Program-made: the position numbers and the translations under genes
Shown: piece after piece, positions 2,382-23,335 of the stretch
Layout of the letters: every line of letters starts with the position of its first letter
How positions within the stretch are numbered: position 1 is the stretch's first letter
Origin: Microcystis aeruginosa NIES-4325
GTDB lineage: Bacteria; Cyanobacteriota; Cyanobacteriia; Cyanobacteriales; Microcystaceae
NCBI RefSeq assembly: GCF_008974145.1
Contig: NZ_BJKP01000004.1
Coordinates: forward strand, 1-64,000
Length of the DNA stretch: 64,000 nt
Direction: 5' to 3'
The notes under the pieces: model-generated
Told to the model about the DNA's origin: nothing
The model's input: only the letters and a program-made list of their open reading frames with translations
Databases searched by the model: none

Positions 2382-2774
2382 ATGACGTTAGCCTATCGAG
2401 GAGTTAAGTACGAAAGGGATTCTCTCCCCTTGGAGATGAAGACTGGAGATATCGGGGGTAAATACCGAGGTCAAGACTGGAATCACCATTATCCTCGCCA
2501 TATGCTCCAATTAGAGCCGAAACTGCATCGTCAGTATCGTGGAGTTGCCTACAGCACCCGTCCTCATCTTACTGGGCAAGTCACCCCGAACGCTTGTCCG
2601 TTGCCCGTTGTCAAACCCCCTGTTGTCCTCCAAGAGGAAACCCTTTCTCGCATCCATCTGAACAATATTCGTCGTCGTCTGGAACGTCGTTTACAAATCG
2701 CTCAAGAGAATGGTGACGAAACCCTCGTTAATCTCTTGAAAAAAGAATCCCAAGACTTAGCCTTAAACTGCTAG
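2382..2774 (+). CDS. DUF4278 domain protein
   Basis: A 130-residue soluble protein starting MTLAYRGVKYER. The LxYRGVxY signature typical of cyanobacterial DUF4278 appears at residues 3-9 and again as YRGVAYS near residue 55, so the motif is duplicated. The C-terminus has an Arg-rich predicted helix (NNIRRRLERRLQIA). Start choice: ATG 2382 has AGGGAG nine bases upstream and is preferred over an in-frame TTG at 2364. A perfect terminator overlaps the stop codon, so the gene is probably monocistronic. Function is unknown. Confidence 0.85.
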   Translation: MTLAYRGVKYERDSLPLEMKTGDIGGKYRGQDWNHHYPRHMLQLEPKLHRQYRGVAYSTRPHLTGQVTPNACPLPVVKPPVVLQEETLSRIHLNNIRRRLERRLQIAQENGDETLVNLLKKESQDLALNC

Positions 2775-2788
2775 ATTAGCAGTTTTTT
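2765..2788 (+). terminator. Intrinsic terminator of the DUF4278 gene
   Basis: AAACTGCTA and TAGCAGTTT form a perfect 9-bp stem with a 3-nt loop, followed by T residues. The stem overlaps the last codons and stop of the gene. Confidence 0.85.
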
Positions 2789-3055
2789 CCCACTTTCCCC
2801 TCGGTTCTGCCGGGTGGAATATTTTTGGGCACAAAAATCTTATCGGTAGAAATTATCATCCTAGTTAGGAGCTTACAGGCTTTTAATTAATTAGGGAGGC
2901 ACAATTATTTGTAGGATGGGTTAGCGGTAGCGTAAACTATGGGGGCGTTGGGTTTCATGCTTCAACCGTTCGGCAAAAGCTCACCGTCGAAGCCCAACCT
3001 ACGTTCATCTTATATTTAATTCCACCCACCCACTTATATTAGGTCGAGGTCTATT

Positions 3056-3646
3056 TTAGTTCTGGTTCGGATTGGGGCGTTGTATCATTTCCACAACATT
3101 TTTGATACCTTGTATAAAAGTTTGGAAACTACGGGATTTATTTTCAGTTAGGGAAAGATGGGGGGCAATCTGTTTAGAGTGGGTTCCTGCATAATACTCT
3201 TTCACTAGCTTTTTTAATTCTTGTTTAGCCGAGTTAAGCCGGTCTGGTTCTCTGTATTTACTTTTATTTTGTTTTTGACCGAGACTATTTAAATTATACG
3301 CCTTGGCCACCGCTGCTAAATCTCCCAGAAACCAAGATTCTAATTCATGGCAAATAATCCGTATTAAGACTTGAGCATCACTGGAATTTTGACAAATTTC
3401 CCCTAGGTCTTTTTTAAGTTTTTGACAGTCGTGGGAATCCTGATCGTGAACAATAATAAATTTGGTATTGGGACTAGATTTCTTGAAAGCTTTGAGTTTT
3501 ATAGGAATAGATTTGGCTAGGTCTTGTTTGCCTTGATGACTAATACATTTATACCTTATTTCTGGGGGAATAAGTTTAGGCAAAAGTTCGTCTAACACAT
3601 TTTCTATAGATGACTCTTCTAGCAAAAATACGATATCATAGTTCAT
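3056..3646 (-). CDS. DUF4276 family protein (Toprim-like), partner of AAA ATPase
   Basis: A 196-residue protein. It has an early acidic motif FLLEESS (residues 8-14), an IVHDQDSHD motif near residue 64, and HELESWFLGD near 100. These are the conserved acidic blocks of DUF4276, a family with a Toprim-like metal-binding layout (family knowledge). The start codon overlaps the ATPase stop by one base (TAATG), so translation is probably coupled. ATPase plus Toprim-like effector pairs are often antiphage modules; that role is inferred here, and the nuclease activity is not shown. Confidence 0.8.
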   Translation of the reverse strand: MNYDIVFLLEESSIENVLDELLPKLIPPEIRYKCISHQGKQDLAKSIPIKLKAFKKSSPNTKFIIVHDQDSHDCQKLKKDLGEICQNSSDAQVLIRIICHELESWFLGDLAAVAKAYNLNSLGQKQNKSKYREPDRLNSAKQELKKLVKEYYAGTHSKQIAPHLSLTENKSRSFQTFIQGIKNVVEMIQRPNPNQN

Positions 3647-4830
3647 TATGGTGCTACTCCTTCAAACCAGCCTTGATTCCAAAGATAGCCGGGTAAATCG
3701 CCTTCCGCTACTAAGTTTTTGATGATTTCGCTATCGGTAGCCCTATGGATTTGGGTGATACCTTGGGATTTAATTAGCCAGAAAATACTAGCTAGTGGAA
3801 CCGCATTGAGAAAATCGGGAGAGTGGCTAGAAACAAATACCTGACCCCCCCGATAGCTATAGTGGGCGAATTCTTCGGCTAGTTCTTTTAATAAAGTAGG
3901 ATAAAGTTGGTTTTCTGGTTCTTCGACACAGAGTAGGGGATGAGGATTGGGATCGAATAGTAATATTAAATAAGCGAACATTTTCATAGTCCCGTCAGAA
4001 ACATAGCGATCAATAAAAGGGTCTTTAAAGGCCTGATCTTGAAAACGTAAAATCAAGCGACCGTCTTCGGTTTCTTTGGCTTCCACAGAAGAAATACCCG
4101 GAACTCGTTGTTTCATTTTTTCGAGAATTTGCTGAAAAATTTCGGGATATTGTTGATAAATATATTGAGCAACTGTAGCTATATTGTCTCCAGTGGGGGA
4201 TAAGTGTTCAGCATAAGATATTTCTTTACTTCCTCTAGCTTCGCTAATATGAAAGTCAGAAACGTGCCAATTTTCAATCAGAGAACGAAAGGCTGTAGCG
4301 GCTTTAAAACGTTGAAATTGTCCTACTCCCTTGATCGCTAGTATGTCGTTAGATTCTAGCTGTTGTTCTTCTCGATCAAGGTCTTTATCTGGTTTACTAA
4401 AATCTTCTTCGTTGGTGATAGCATATCCTTGGCCAAGTTTAAAATCTAAAAAATGAAAAGGTGCACCGTGTTCACCCCGTTTATAGCGAAGTATTTCGCG
4501 TTTGATAACGGGACGATTATTGTTTTGTCCAATTATAAGTATATAAGTAACCAGACGTTCTGTATCTAAGATTTTCATGCGAAATTGCAGCTCGATTTCA
4601 ATATCTTCCTGTTCTTGACCTCTAGTGATAATTTCTCTATAACCGCCGCGAATTTGTAAGGCTTGGCGAATGTTGTTTTTGAGGGCATCTCGCAGAAAAC
4701 CAAAAATATCAAATAGAGTAGATTTTCCCGTGCCGTTAGCTCCAATAATCACACAAAAAGGGGGAATATCTCTTATGTGTATATTTTTAAACATACGATA
4801 GTTTTTTATTTTAATAGAAACAATTTTCAT
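3646..4830 (-). CDS. AAA family ATPase (SMC/OLD-like, AAA_21 type)
   Basis: A 394-residue ABC-type ATPase. Walker A GANGTGKST is at residues 30-38, a signature-like YVSDGTMKMFAYL region near 275, Walker B LLCVEEPENQLYP near 297, and an H-loop SSHSPDFL near 335. The insert between Walker A and the signature lacks a long coiled coil, as in AAA_21/AAA15 ATPases of defence systems rather than true SMC proteins. It precedes and overlaps the DUF4276 gene by one base. The likely role is the sensor/ATPase half of a two-gene defence-like module (inference). Confidence 0.85.
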   Translation of the reverse strand: MKIVSIKIKNYRMFKNIHIRDIPPFCVIIGANGTGKSTLFDIFGFLRDALKNNIRQALQIRGGYREIITRGQEQEDIEIELQFRMKILDTERLVTYILIIGQNNNRPVIKREILRYKRGEHGAPFHFLDFKLGQGYAITNEEDFSKPDKDLDREEQQLESNDILAIKGVGQFQRFKAATAFRSLIENWHVSDFHISEARGSKEISYAEHLSPTGDNIATVAQYIYQQYPEIFQQILEKMKQRVPGISSVEAKETEDGRLILRFQDQAFKDPFIDRYVSDGTMKMFAYLILLFDPNPHPLLCVEEPENQLYPTLLKELAEEFAHYSYRGGQVFVSSHSPDFLNAVPLASIFWLIKSQGITQIHRATDSEIIKNLVAEGDLPGYLWNQGWFEGVAP

Positions 4831-19142: not shown

Positions 19143-19403
19143 CTAGTCATAATGAAATTTACAACTGATAATAACAATTTCTGTTTCTGTAATTTTATAA
19201 ACTAAGCGATGTTCATCATTAATGCGTCTTGACCAATAACCCTTGAGTTGATGTTTTAAGGGTTCGGGTTTACCGATTCCAGAGAAAGGATGGCGCAATA
19301 TGTCGTCAATTAAATCAACTATTTTTTTATAGAGTTTTTTGTCTTCTATAGCCCATTCATTGAATTGTTTAAAAGCTTTTGGATCAAATACTATATTTTT
19401 CAC
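19143..19403 (-). CDS. YoeB/Txe family toxin (ribosome-dependent mRNA nuclease)
   Basis: 86 residues, normal for YoeB. Visible features include EPLK with E47, the YWSRRINDEHRLVY block (R60, R66) and the end CKFHYD with H84 and Y85, which match the catalytic residues of the family. YoeB toxins cut mRNA in the ribosomal A site. The start lies 20 bp inside the upstream antitoxin gene, the standard antitoxin-first coupled arrangement. Confidence 0.92.
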   Translation of the reverse strand: MKNIVFDPKAFKQFNEWAIEDKKLYKKIVDLIDDILRHPFSGIGKPEPLKHQLKGYWSRRINDEHRLVYKITETEIVIISCKFHYD

Positions 19404-19638
19404 GCCATTCTTTTACAGTAATTATCACTAAGTTTTCTTTCTTTTCTATTCTGTCAATAGCTTCGGATAATTCACGCTGATTGGCTTCTGTTGAAAGAAG
19501 ATATTCGGTTGTATCGGGTTCAGGATCAGATACTAAAATAATGATATCCACATCTGTTCCTTCTTCTAGTTCCGCAGAATAAAGCTCTATTTTTCCTTCT
19601 CTGCCAACAATTCCTTTCTGTTTAATCGCTCTAATCAT
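19384..19638 (-). CDS. Antitoxin partner of the YoeB-like toxin (Phd/YefM-like position)
   Basis: 84 residues from ATG 19638, chosen because GAGAAAAA lies just upstream; a longer frame to 19665 would include that region. The N-terminus MIRAIKQKGIVGREGKIELY suggests a beta-strand DNA-binding domain. The acidic middle is followed by a C-terminal tail (KENLVIITVKEWREKYSI) likely to wrap the toxin. The position and 20-bp overlap with the toxin support antitoxin function. The exact antitoxin family is uncertain. Confidence 0.8.
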   Translation of the reverse strand: MIRAIKQKGIVGREGKIELYSAELEEGTDVDIIILVSDPEPDTTEYLLSTEANQRELSEAIDRIEKKENLVIITVKEWREKYSI

Positions 19639-19752
19639 GATTTTTTCTCTTAAGATGTCAAACAATTATGGCTATTATATCAAAATCAGCATGAGTTAGA
19701 ACTGATGACAAGAAAAGCGATCGCCATTACCCAAAAATTGATCCTTCCCAAA

Positions 19753-19841: not shown

Positions 19842-20087
19842 TCATAGTTCAATTCCATTGATCCAAATTTCATACTCGCTTATATCAACTTCATCATTCC
19901 AAATGATTCCGCTACCTGATGGATCAAGTTGAAAGTTTTTAAAGAAAGCATAGTTTTTAAGGGAAGAAAACATCGTTTTTTCTAGTAGATTTTCACAGTT
20001 ATATTTTCTAGATTGATGATTAGAAAAATGCACCAATAGAGTATAATTTTCAATGATTTCGGCTGATGTTATTTTGGGATAAAGCAT
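19842..20087 (-). CDS. DUF2442 domain protein
   Basis: 81 residues. The pattern YPKITSAEIIENYTLLVHFSN at the start and IIWNDEVDISEYEIWINGIEL at the end is the usual DUF2442 layout. The gene follows a DUF4160 gene by four bases on the same strand. DUF4160/DUF2442 pairs are widespread in genomes rich in toxin-antitoxin loci and are suspected to be such a system, but no activity is shown here. Confidence 0.85.
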   Translation of the reverse strand: MLYPKITSAEIIENYTLLVHFSNHQSRKYNCENLLEKTMFSSLKNYAFFKNFQLDPSGSGIIWNDEVDISEYEIWINGIEL

Positions 20088-20091
20088 TGTT

Positions 20092-20340
20092 TTATTTCAA
20101 AGGTGGTAATTTATTAAATTCTTGAGTGTTCCACATTTTCAATAATTCTGATTGATAGATTGTTGCCCATTCTACAACCATTTTTGTGGCTCTATTAGGT
20201 AAGTCTCCTTCAATGATTTCTAAGGTTTCCAGATTAAATAGGGCGTTATATTCTCCATAAATCGCATGAAAATGGGGAGGTGGATGATCGGCAAAAAAGA
20301 TTTTAATGATAATTCCATAAAATCGAGTAATTTCTGGCAT
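20092..20340 (-). CDS. DUF4160 domain protein
   Basis: 82 residues. It has the family hallmark MPEITRFYGIIIKIFF followed by DHPPPHFHAIYGEY (residues about 18-31), then GDLPNRATKMVVEWA. The histidine-rich HPPPHFHA block is nearly diagnostic. It is the first gene of a two-gene unit with DUF2442, spaced by four bases. The role is unknown; a toxin-antitoxin-like module is an inference from context. Confidence 0.87.
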   Translation of the reverse strand: MPEITRFYGIIIKIFFADHPPPHFHAIYGEYNALFNLETLEIIEGDLPNRATKMVVEWATIYQSELLKMWNTQEFNKLPPLK

Positions 20341-20629: not shown

Positions 20630-21658
20630 CTAGGACTGAGTTATACATTGTTTTTCTTTGTCAGTTAAATCAATATATTCAGTTTGTATTCGTTTATTCT
20701 TGATTAGTATTCTAAAATAAGGACATTTCCCATTTACTGATAAATCTTTATCATCATTCCCTTTCCTGAATTTAATTATTTCAAATTGGTCGGGATTGAA
20801 TTTATGTAAAAATGTTATTGGTACACCCATAACCCCCTTGAAGTCTAAAGGAATGTCTTGGGTTTTATTGACATTAATTCCATCATAATTGTCATATTTT
20901 GGATATGCTTCCTCATTGCCAAAATATCTTTTTGTGAGAGCTATATCTTGGTGTCGTTTTGATGTGTCTAAGTTTGTTAACCATAAACAATTATTTGGAG
21001 AAACTATTCTATTTCCAGAATTGTCAATACGAGCCTCTGTTCCATAAAGTTGATATTGTTCGGGAACAATGAAACCAGAAATACCTCTACCAAGATTTAT
21101 TCCTAACCAGGCTTTGTTTTCTTTAATTAGTTTGAAAATTTCTTTATAGGTTATTGCATTAATATTGCCAATTATCAAAAACTTTTTGTCATATTTAACT
21201 AATTGAGCTACATATTCTCTGAATAATGAAAATGGCGGATTAGTAACAATAATATCAGACTTTTTTAATAGTTCAATACTTTCAGGACTACGAAAATCTC
21301 CATCCCCATTAAAGTAAATAATGTCAGTGGAAATAGGTTTATTTTTTTCTCTATCTGTACCTGTATATTCAAAGAAAAAACCCTTTTCATCTTCTTCTGT
21401 ATTAAATAAATCTCTCACTTGTTCTCGATAACAAGATGTTATTATTTTTTTTAGACCTAACTTTTTGAAGTTTGCAGCAAAATACTTAAAAAAGTTACTA
21501 ATTCTGGGGTCATCGCAATTGCAATAAACTACTTTATTTTCAAAATGACTTTTATAATGTTGCAACTCACTTTCTATATCTGAAAGTTGTGTATAAAACT
21601 CGTCACTTTTTAGTTTTTTAGCATTTTGCAATAATTTATTTGTCGCATTTCTTACCAT
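20630..21658 (-). CDS. EcoRI-type adenine-specific DNA methyltransferase
   Basis: 342 residues from ATG 21658 (AAGG about ten bases upstream; the frame extends to a TTG at 21664). The N-terminus VRNATNKLLQNAKKLKSDEF and the YCNCDDPR block match M.EcoRI as I remember it. Motif IV is NPPF at about residues 140-143, the same place as in M.EcoRI. It should methylate the second adenine of GAATTC and protect host DNA (inference from family). The nuclease gene lies 39 bp upstream in the same order as in the EcoRI system. Confidence 0.93.
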   Translation of the reverse strand: MVRNATNKLLQNAKKLKSDEFYTQLSDIESELQHYKSHFENKVVYCNCDDPRISNFFKYFAANFKKLGLKKIITSCYREQVRDLFNTEEDEKGFFFEYTGTDREKNKPISTDIIYFNGDGDFRSPESIELLKKSDIIVTNPPFSLFREYVAQLVKYDKKFLIIGNINAITYKEIFKLIKENKAWLGINLGRGISGFIVPEQYQLYGTEARIDNSGNRIVSPNNCLWLTNLDTSKRHQDIALTKRYFGNEEAYPKYDNYDGINVNKTQDIPLDFKGVMGVPITFLHKFNPDQFEIIKFRKGNDDKDLSVNGKCPYFRILIKNKRIQTEYIDLTDKEKQCITQS

Positions 21659-21697
21659 GTTCAACCTTTTTTGATTTAATAAATGTTTTGTTTTTAG

Positions 21698-22534
21698 TTA
21701 TTTACTTTTGGTTATCTGATTAAATATTTCACTGCCTAATACTTGAAGAGAGGTTTTAGAAATTTCAAGCATAATATCAAACATTTTTTTGATATCCCAT
21801 TTTTCTCCATTCCCTTGTGTGTATATAGAAGTTGCTTGAAGCATTATGGTTTTATCTTTATGTTTGACAAACTTATTCTTACACAAATTGATATTAATTG
21901 GCATTCCATAATTTGCAGAAGTTAATCGATCTAATCTATTTAACATTCCTGAATTATATTCGAGCGTTACAACCCTTCCATCGGGTATTTTAATTGAAAT
22001 ATTTTCTGTTAAAAAATTTGAGCCTTCAAGAAATAAGACATAAGGAAAATGAGATTCATATAACATCAAATTAGCGATTTCAGATATGTTTTTATGCGAC
22101 CTTTCTATTGCATTACCAGCAGCCATCAAGTCTTGATTATTATTCTTACCTACCAGTTTACCGTTTTTGATATTTTCAATGTCTTTTCCTTGACGTTTAG
22201 CTTCCGAGACTAAAACGATTCTCCAATTACCGTTATCGTCTTTTACTTCTATTATTCCACCATCAGGTCTAATACTTGAATCTGATACAAAAAGGGTTTG
22301 CCCTAATTCTGGGTCAACTTTCTTTAATGCTTCGTTTATTTCTTCTTTTTTTATACTTCTTTTGTATTGAAAAGATAATTGAGGAAACTCCTTTTTAAGT
22401 TGGTCAATAACAAGATGTGAAATTTCTCCAACTATTGTTTCGTGTGATTTTGCTTCAGCCCCAAATATACCAGCTACACCTTTAGACTCTTTATGTTGAT
22501 TCGTTAATCTTTTCGATTGATTTTTTTTAGACAT
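21698..22534 (-). CDS. EcoRI-type restriction endonuclease
   Basis: 278 residues, against 277 for EcoRI, apparently colinear without gaps at the key sites. The catalytic centre is D91 (RPDGGIIEVKDD), E111 and K113 (VLVSEAKRQGKD). Recognition residues N141 and R145 (AAGNAIERSHKN) and R200/R203 (LNRLDRL) are all present, so GAATTC specificity is expected. Position 114 is Arg where EcoRI has His. Long stretches such as SHKNISEIANLML and LFLEGSNFLTENI match EcoRI closely. The ATG start agrees with the EcoRI N-terminus. Confidence 0.95.
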   Translation of the reverse strand: MSKKNQSKRLTNQHKESKGVAGIFGAEAKSHETIVGEISHLVIDQLKKEFPQLSFQYKRSIKKEEINEALKKVDPELGQTLFVSDSSIRPDGGIIEVKDDNGNWRIVLVSEAKRQGKDIENIKNGKLVGKNNNQDLMAAGNAIERSHKNISEIANLMLYESHFPYVLFLEGSNFLTENISIKIPDGRVVTLEYNSGMLNRLDRLTSANYGMPININLCKNKFVKHKDKTIMLQATSIYTQGNGEKWDIKKMFDIMLEISKTSLQVLGSEIFNQITKSK

Positions 22535-22641
22535 AATGTATCTTTTCCTTACTTAAACTTTCTGCTTTCTGCTACGGGTAATGTATGTATAACGTTGGCA
22601 ATCAGCGGCTCGCAACCTTGGACGATCCACACCGCCCGATT

Positions 22642-22974
22642 TTATCGCGAGTCCGCTGCATTGCGTTGTTCGCCGATGGGAGAATCGTCAATCCGGTAGT
22701 GCTCTACGGACAGCTTTCTTCCGAAAGCCTCCATACCGGCGGGAATCACTGGTGTGTTCCATTCCGGCCCTGCGAAGGCGACCAAAGCATCTTCGTCGCG
22801 CCATCGGGTGATCATGGAATACGTGTTGGGCGCCCATCGAGTAGGCATCCCAATCTCGCACGAAAGATTGCCGGGGGCTCGCGTGACTGCATCGACGGAC
22901 AGGGATCGAAACCCGGCCTCAAAAGCGGAACGGGTTGATGGATCAATCTCGACACGAAAGATGCGAAGAATCAT
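22642..22974 (-). CDS. ABM-type (antibiotic biosynthesis monooxygenase-like) protein, GC-rich
   Basis: 110 residues. The start MILRIFRVEIDP, the NLSCEIGMPTRW middle and the YSMITRWRDEDALVAFAG segment match the ferredoxin-like ABM fold, small cofactor-free monooxygenases or quinol-oxidising proteins. The gene is clearly richer in G and C than its neighbours, with many CG-ending codons, so it is probably a recent acquisition. It lies directly upstream of the EcoRI-type nuclease gene on the same strand. Its substrate is unknown. Confidence 0.72.
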   Translation of the reverse strand: MILRIFRVEIDPSTRSAFEAGFRSLSVDAVTRAPGNLSCEIGMPTRWAPNTYSMITRWRDEDALVAFAGPEWNTPVIPAGMEAFGRKLSVEHYRIDDSPIGEQRNAADSR

Positions 22975-23335
22975 GGCTGGTTGGCGAACTACATATTATA
23001 CAGAAACTTTCTGTCTAACACTCTCCAGAGTAACGATAGGTGGAAACTTTGGGCATATTCCCCCATTTTACTGCAATCGCCGGAACTTTTCCCCATATTA
23101 TACCCAAGAGCGTATTAGCCAGATTAAACAACGTCTTTTAAGTGGATTCCTAACAACAAGCTCAAATAAAATCGACTTTTCGGGAAGTGTAGCACTAATT
23201 CTTCAATCCACCCCACAATTACCTAATTTTCGGGGAAAAAGTGCCTAAATTTTGCCACCGGCTGGCACTTTTTGAGGACAAAAAGCCTAAAAGTCTTATC
23301 CCACAAGGGTTTTAGCTCTATTCAGCCAACCCTAT
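22975..23335. other. Spacer at the right edge of the accessory island
   Basis: No complete gene. A plus-strand stretch (about 23042-23248) reads without stops as an unrecognised peptide containing YTQERISQIKQRLLSG and ends in a stop, so it may be a decayed gene. After it, a TGGCACTTTTTGAGGACAAAAA word resembles sequence near 23867-23900. Confidence 0.35.

Follow-up and report, generated by a model that had tools for sequence, protein, structure and literature searches.

How does a cyanobacterium come to carry a restriction-modification pair that closely resembles EcoRI and its methylase, and what moves such a pair between hosts? The question is raised by a stretch of 64,000 nt from Microcystis aeruginosa NIES-4325 (the start of contig NZ_BJKP01000004.1, hereafter called the window). 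A sequence-only reading had picked out a complete EcoRI-type system within it and, given the likeness to an enterobacterial plasmid system, had suggested that the whole pair arrived by horizontal transfer. We examined the two proteins, their relatives, and the DNA on either side of the pair.

The restriction-modification pair

Both genes are on the minus strand, 39 nt apart, and both are intact:

21698..22534, minus strand: EcoRI-family endonuclease, 278 aa, intact, with catalytic and recognition residues conserved and an H114R substitution
20630..21658, minus strand: M.EcoRI-family adenine methylase, 342 aa, intact, with an NPPF motif; its final codons overlap an attC-type box, GTATAAC

The nuclease matches solved EcoRI chains (E 6e-133) and, over its full length, Pfam PF02963 (1.5e-146), and the methylase matches PF13651 (2.1e-131), values which exclude chance for both proteins. 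The earlier comparison with EcoRI had been made by eye, with a real alignment proposed as its check. BLASTP against the E. coli plasmid pCol-4 gives high identities: 74.9% over 275 aa without gaps for the nuclease, and 72% (235/325) for the methylase. All seven residues singled out by that comparison, i.e., D91, E111, and K113 (catalytic) and N141, R145, R200, and R203 (recognition), are the same as in EcoRI and are invariant in 63/63 aligned nucleases. The methylase start that matches M.EcoRI is the ATG at 21658 (the open reading frame list gives a TTG at 21664), and the NPPF motif and the EcoRI-like order of nuclease, short gap, and methylase are present. The presence of a complete EcoRI-type pair in this cyanobacterium is confirmed. 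In its full-length proteins, key residues, gene order, and short gap it resembles the type II P system EcoRI/M.EcoRI of E. coli plasmids; it differs from that system in H114R and in a methylase which extends 16 residues beyond the M.EcoRI end (326 aa). The nuclease gene occurs once in the genome (3.88 Mb in 166 contigs, the window lying on contig C4).

His114 is present in 55/63 aligned nucleases, and only the window nuclease and its near twin, Microcystis L002, have Arg at this position. In EcoRI, H114 contributes to recognition and catalysis, and relaxed-specificity mutants at H114 are cited in the text available from PMC11755562. Because of H114R, the cleavage stringency of the window nuclease could perhaps be altered.

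By its family, the pair would most likely cut unmodified GAATTC and, in host DNA, methylate the adenine within that sequence. Avoidance of GAATTC as a footprint of the pair was considered and rejected: the genome has 921 sites (about 0.24 per kb), a density which resembles that of the other 11 Microcystis genomes (~0.21–0.24 per kb, with or without an intact nuclease), so there is no sign of avoidance. As a side observation, CTTAAG occurs 987 times in the 4.6 Mb of the L002 genome (G010), about 0.21 per kb, and at 0.15–0.17 per kb in the other 11 Microcystis genomes.

Relatives and origin

The family is very widely distributed. A search of the genome collection confirmed 86 relatives, 80 of which were kept, and their hosts include Bacteroidota, Chlamydiota, Desulfobacterota, Pseudomonadota, Chloroflexota, Bacillota, several candidate phyla, and other cyanobacteria. 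Because a large share of these records derive from metagenome bins, the host assigned to any one of them is uncertain. Given this distribution, a cyanobacterial host for an EcoRI-type pair is nothing unusual. The nearest named record to the window nuclease is that of Microcystis aeruginosa L002 (97%). Plasmid records gave 19 matches, 16 of them at 60–80%; enterobacterial copies sit on small plasmids, and the Leuconostoc copies are on plasmids too. Phage carriage was tried as an explanation and dropped, the phage collection having given one record only (a partial match in a Helicobacter phage), plus three putatively viral IMG/VR contigs. In the Helicobacter phage record (L163, bases 2528–3943), the EcoRI-type nuclease is shortened, and the annotation splits the methylase in two.

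From the 63 nucleases and 67 methylases collected, we built maximum-likelihood trees of 52 sequences each, restricted to loci in which both proteins were complete. The window groups with Microcystis L002 in both (support 100/97 for the nuclease, 100/99 for the methylase), and in the methylase tree it also groups with Microcystis G009 (95/85). The nearest rows outside Microcystis are Bacteroidota and Thermodesulfobacteriota. Many inner branches are weak, so we claim no donor.

Direct transfer from an enterobacterial EcoRI plasmid would account for the protein identity of about 75% and for the common gene order. We nevertheless regard it as highly improbable: closer relatives of the window pair, at 83–90%, are numerous in other phyla (Bacteroidota, Chlamydiota, Desulfobacterota, and candidate phyla); the E. 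coli and Klebsiella michiganensis plasmid copies form a separate branch which is not sister to the window in either tree; and the window has a 57-nt leader in common with Desulfamplus and Methylococcales. The idea of horizontal transfer therefore stands only in part. In nearly all loci with both genes, the methylase comes immediately after the nuclease, which supports movement of the pair as a unit, but both trees reject the enterobacterial origin.

Nuclease matches were found in 11/59 related genomes searched, all of them in the genus Microcystis, and 11/12 Microcystis genomes (G000–G011, the window's being G000) carry at least one unit of the pair, for 12 units in total. These fall into two lineages. 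Lineage A is window-like, and lineage B has 89–90% protein identity to lineage A and occupies a different chromosomal place.

Anatomy of the window locus

Upstream of the nuclease, the locus can be divided into an attI-like element, a second cassette, and the leader of the pair itself, and a box of the pair's attC lies at the end of the methylase:

22987..23130, minus strand: attI-like element, with TATAAT at 23000–22995 and the crossover at G22989^T22988
22593..22988, minus strand: second cassette, 396 bp, GC about 50%, exactly at G^TT between the attI-like element and the nuclease
22974–22642, minus strand: ABM-domain (monooxygenase-like) open reading frame in the second cassette
22587..22674, minus strand: attC-like site of the ABM cassette, whose R'' box GGCGAAC exactly complements the R' box of its own circle, GTTCGCC, with a hairpin that has unpaired extra bases
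22535..22592, minus strand: cassette leader of the pair, beginning TTATACATACATTA at the crossover
20640..20646, minus strand: R'' box of the pair's own attC, GTATAAC, the exact complement of the cassette start GTTATAC

Read along the minus strand, the order is ...TATAATATGTAG^TTCGCC...ATG (ABM)...GGCGAAC...hairpin...GCCAACG^TTATACATAC...ATG (nuclease), with the insertion exactly at G^TT. The ABM unit has the G^TT junctions, exact R''/R' pair, and single open reading frame of an integron cassette, and we take the pairing of its GGCGAAC and GTTCGCC boxes to be cassette and attC architecture. Its hairpin folds little better than shuffled sequences do (z −0.94 and −1.38) and alone is not significant. 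The GC-rich ABM segment (22594–22986) is absent from lineage B, where the flanking bases are joined, and other DNA takes its place in G010 and G005.

The pair likewise starts at the G^TT of the attI-like site, its leader beginning TTATAC at the crossover. This junction recurs in distant hosts: the 57-nt leader of the window is 88% identical to those of L011 (Desulfamplus) and L017 (Methylococcales), and the next 57 nt above the crossover are 37% (L011) and 32% (L017) identical to the window, i.e., at chance level. At the other end, GTATAAC alone is left of the pair's attC in the window, overlapping the end of the methylase, and other repeat DNA then follows. In lineage B (G002, G003, and G007), the methylase is followed by an attC-like GTATAAC...GTTATGC with a hairpin (z −2.92 for L010).

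On the 3' side of the window pair (19143–19665 and 19842–20340) are a YoeB-type toxin open reading frame with an upstream partner and a DUF2442/DUF4160 pair, the latter DhiT-like and just below the NCBIfam cut-off. Short repeats bracket these open reading frames and recur within the window locus and in relatives.

The point of insertion is variable. At the window locus, defined by homology of both flanks, the first segment after the common G^TT takes four forms among seven Microcystis genomes: ABM (G000, G003), a 187-codon open reading frame of no assigned family (G009, G010), a third segment (G006, G007), and a fourth (G011). Three of these genomes (G006, G007, and G009) have no restriction-modification pair at this locus, and in G003, ABM precedes a leader of the pair that breaks off at a deletion after about 31 bases. 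A matching R'' box was found for the ABM and G010 segments, and the own-box search found none for the first segments of G006 and G007.

The integrase and its putative attachment site

An integron integrase gene (intI) is present in the window's genome, on contig C26 (not the window's contig), with a TIGR02249 score of 463 bits against a cut-off of 265. Integrases above this cut-off occur in 4/12 Microcystis genomes and in 14/148 genomes drawn from the order; cyanobacterial intI genes are already in print, as noted in the portion of PMC2426708 available to us. Relative to G011, the gene in the window's genome (L132, 17500–18532) has a frameshift after about 18 codons, for which an assembly error is possible. 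Because of this frameshift, intI may be inactive in the window's genome. Many Microcystis genomes have a truncated intI which encodes the first ~105 integrase residues only (L138, L139, L121–L126, L128, and L129).

The sequence adjacent to intI is nearly constant in G000, G009, G010, and G011, ends ...GCATAATATATAG^TT, and is then followed by four different sequences. On this pattern, it behaves as a putative attI with variable first cassettes. The window element has both homology to this site and the same crossover: the 38-nt core before the window crossover is 79–82% identical to the intI-adjacent region (G000, G002, G010, and G011) and has the same end base. Its alignment to the intI-adjacent attI scores 36, a score reached by 0/2000 shuffles. 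Across 21 elements, 18 gave 0/2000 in the same test, and the other three gave one of 2000 each; several other copies align to the intI-adjacent attI in register over almost all of their own 144 bases.

Such elements are dispersed. All 12 Microcystis genomes have them, with 6–21 BLAST matches per genome (some partial or split). The 20 copies that we read (L140–L159) all have GTT as their last bases, and in 18 of them an exact TATAAT stands a short way ahead of it. What comes next varies, with 16 distinct sequences after the 20 copies. In Anabaena and Dolichospermum (L069 and L040, bases 3890–3936; few copies), the pair is preceded by a sequence which by eye resembles the Microcystis attI core, ACAGAAAATTTTTGTATAATACATAGTT.

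A recombinase other than IntI might fill these G^TT sites, e.g., an IS200/IS605-kind single-strand transposon or another repeat-borne recombinase, with the hairpins as its ends. Elements of the IS200/IS605 kind likewise make use of hairpins and of short, fixed targets, and the attI-like element is, with its many matches per genome, a dispersed repeat. We give this explanation little probability, because the crossover is identical to the one beside intI, because the complementary boxes of a unit are at its opposite ends, as they are in attC, and because the two window units hold nuclease, methylase, and ABM open reading frames without a transposase.

attC-like sites within and beyond Microcystis

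A generic attC finder reported six strand-sites in the window, all in ordinary DNA and none at the pair's locus, and our first scan of the integrase regions, which used a loose rule, mostly returned ordinary DNA. An own-box test that accepted 6 of 7 matches and a hairpin of ≤ −9 gave 10/30 units against 159/808 other boxes, hardly above the control. We replaced it with an exact test, which requires a 7/7 complement of the unit's start box and a hairpin of ≤ −10, on 30 units that follow attI-like or cassette junctions. This found 7/30 units, compared with 50/6000 random boxes and 8/420 of other units' boxes; the 30 units include duplicates, and several of the seven positives repeat (ABM twice, lineage B twice).

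For the distant loci, a strict finder was run on 82 of 83 loci (L095 having been dropped beforehand as a duplicate of L094). It found 10 attC-like sites at the borders of the pair, compared with 1.2 expected from the background of the same loci (Poisson 7e-7). These sites belong to 8/82 loci: L005, L006, L010, L011, L035, L042, L094, and L096. L010 is Microcystis lineage B, and the L005 site, the weakest of the set, may be a chance match. In L006 (Bacteroidota), the pair lies inside a run of attC-like sites on one strand; in L094, near-identical attC-like sites flank it on both sides; and in L096, three near-identical sites precede it.

The remaining 74/82 distinct distant loci have no attC-like border site by the strict finder, and small plasmids carry the enterobacterial copies, so the cassette is one route among several and not the rule. 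The window pair, too, could be imagined as an ordinary one that plasmids, transposons, or homologous recombination have spread, with the attI/attC likeness accidental or due to an unrelated repeat and G^TT a coincidence. The 74 loci, the plasmid-borne enterobacterial and Leuconostoc copies, and the abundance of other repeats at the Microcystis loci all favour it. We consider it unlikely, as the breakpoints of independent genomes, including those of other phyla, coincide to the base, exact box complementarity exceeds the control, and intI with a variable attI is present in the same genus.

We therefore favour, with good though not complete confidence, the explanation that the window holds an intact EcoRI-family type II pair which is, or formerly was, an integron cassette inserted at an attI-like G^TT and which has since become stranded. 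The pair would have entered by site-specific recombination at the G^TT of the attI-like site, with IntI as the recombinase, and the −10-like TATAAT just before the crossover probably drives it. The ABM cassette would have been inserted later at the same point, ahead of the pair. In the window lineage the pair's attC appears to have been lost except for its first box, and with the attC gone, the pair would now be stranded.

We put forward more tentatively a wider possibility, that Microcystis has a dispersed attI network: copies with a fixed G^TT crossover and a promoter-like TATAAT ahead of it would be served in trans by an integrase encoded elsewhere. In place of a single long array, the genus would then maintain numerous expression slots of one or two cassettes, and the EcoRI-type pair would be among the cassettes exchanged between slots, strains, and phyla.

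Decay of the pair in Microcystis

Most units of the pair in Microcystis are damaged. Lineage A is intact in G000 and G010; in G008, G001, and G011, it has an open methylase and only the C-terminal end of the nuclease; and a second copy in G009 is a broken lineage A, with a nuclease remnant and a frameshifted methylase. Lineage B is intact in G009. Its nuclease is interrupted by stops in G007, G003, and G002 and by a large deletion in G005, but all four keep an open methylase; in G004, the nuclease is frameshifted and the methylase is interrupted. The nuclease is thus intact in 3/12 units, broken beside an open methylase in 7/12, and broken together with the methylase in 2/12.

Methylase dN/dS is 0.07–0.34 in the pairs computed, except for one pair without any amino-acid change. 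These values indicate purifying selection on the methylase, which perhaps partly predates the loss of the nuclease. A restriction pair is expected to be shed nuclease first only, and the Microcystis series fits this expectation.

Comparison with known systems and significance

EcoRI/M.EcoRI resides on a small mobilizable plasmid, whereas the window pair is at an attI-like site on a chromosome-type contig. It also resembles the defence cassettes of chromosomal integrons in Vibrio and Xanthomonas, with which it has in common a small defence system placed first after attI and an attC-type end. Restriction-modification systems have been reported among Xanthomonas integron cassettes (PMC12444791, in the part available), and Vibrio integrons have been described as biobanks of defence systems (an excerpt of PMC12409362, citing Darracq et al. 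2025). The window pair differs from these in its EcoRI family, its cyanobacterial host, and its attI-like site on another contig, far from intI. Attachment sites away from any intI are also known, namely CALIN (clusters of attC lacking integrase) and attI-containing cassettes (partial texts of PMC9892861 and PMC12901181). The Microcystis sites share this separation from intI, but unlike CALIN, the dispersed site here is attI-like, recurs as 6–21 BLAST matches per genome, and has its own segment after each copy read. Among the matches listed in our literature search, which covered few subscription papers, we found no EcoRI-family integron cassette and no dispersed Microcystis attI. The EcoRI family as a cassette in several phyla, and dispersed attI-like sites, seem to be new.

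EcoRI is the textbook restriction enzyme, and enterobacterial plasmids do not explain the scatter of its family over distant phyla at 80–90% identity. The cassette route offers a concrete, testable vehicle for that spread. The intact, nuclease-dead, and deleted copies at homologous sites in Microcystis form a natural record of the pair's retirement, nuclease first and methylase later. If the dispersed attI sites work, the Microcystis integron would be unusual and decentralised, which bears on how phage defences are swapped in this bloom-forming genus.
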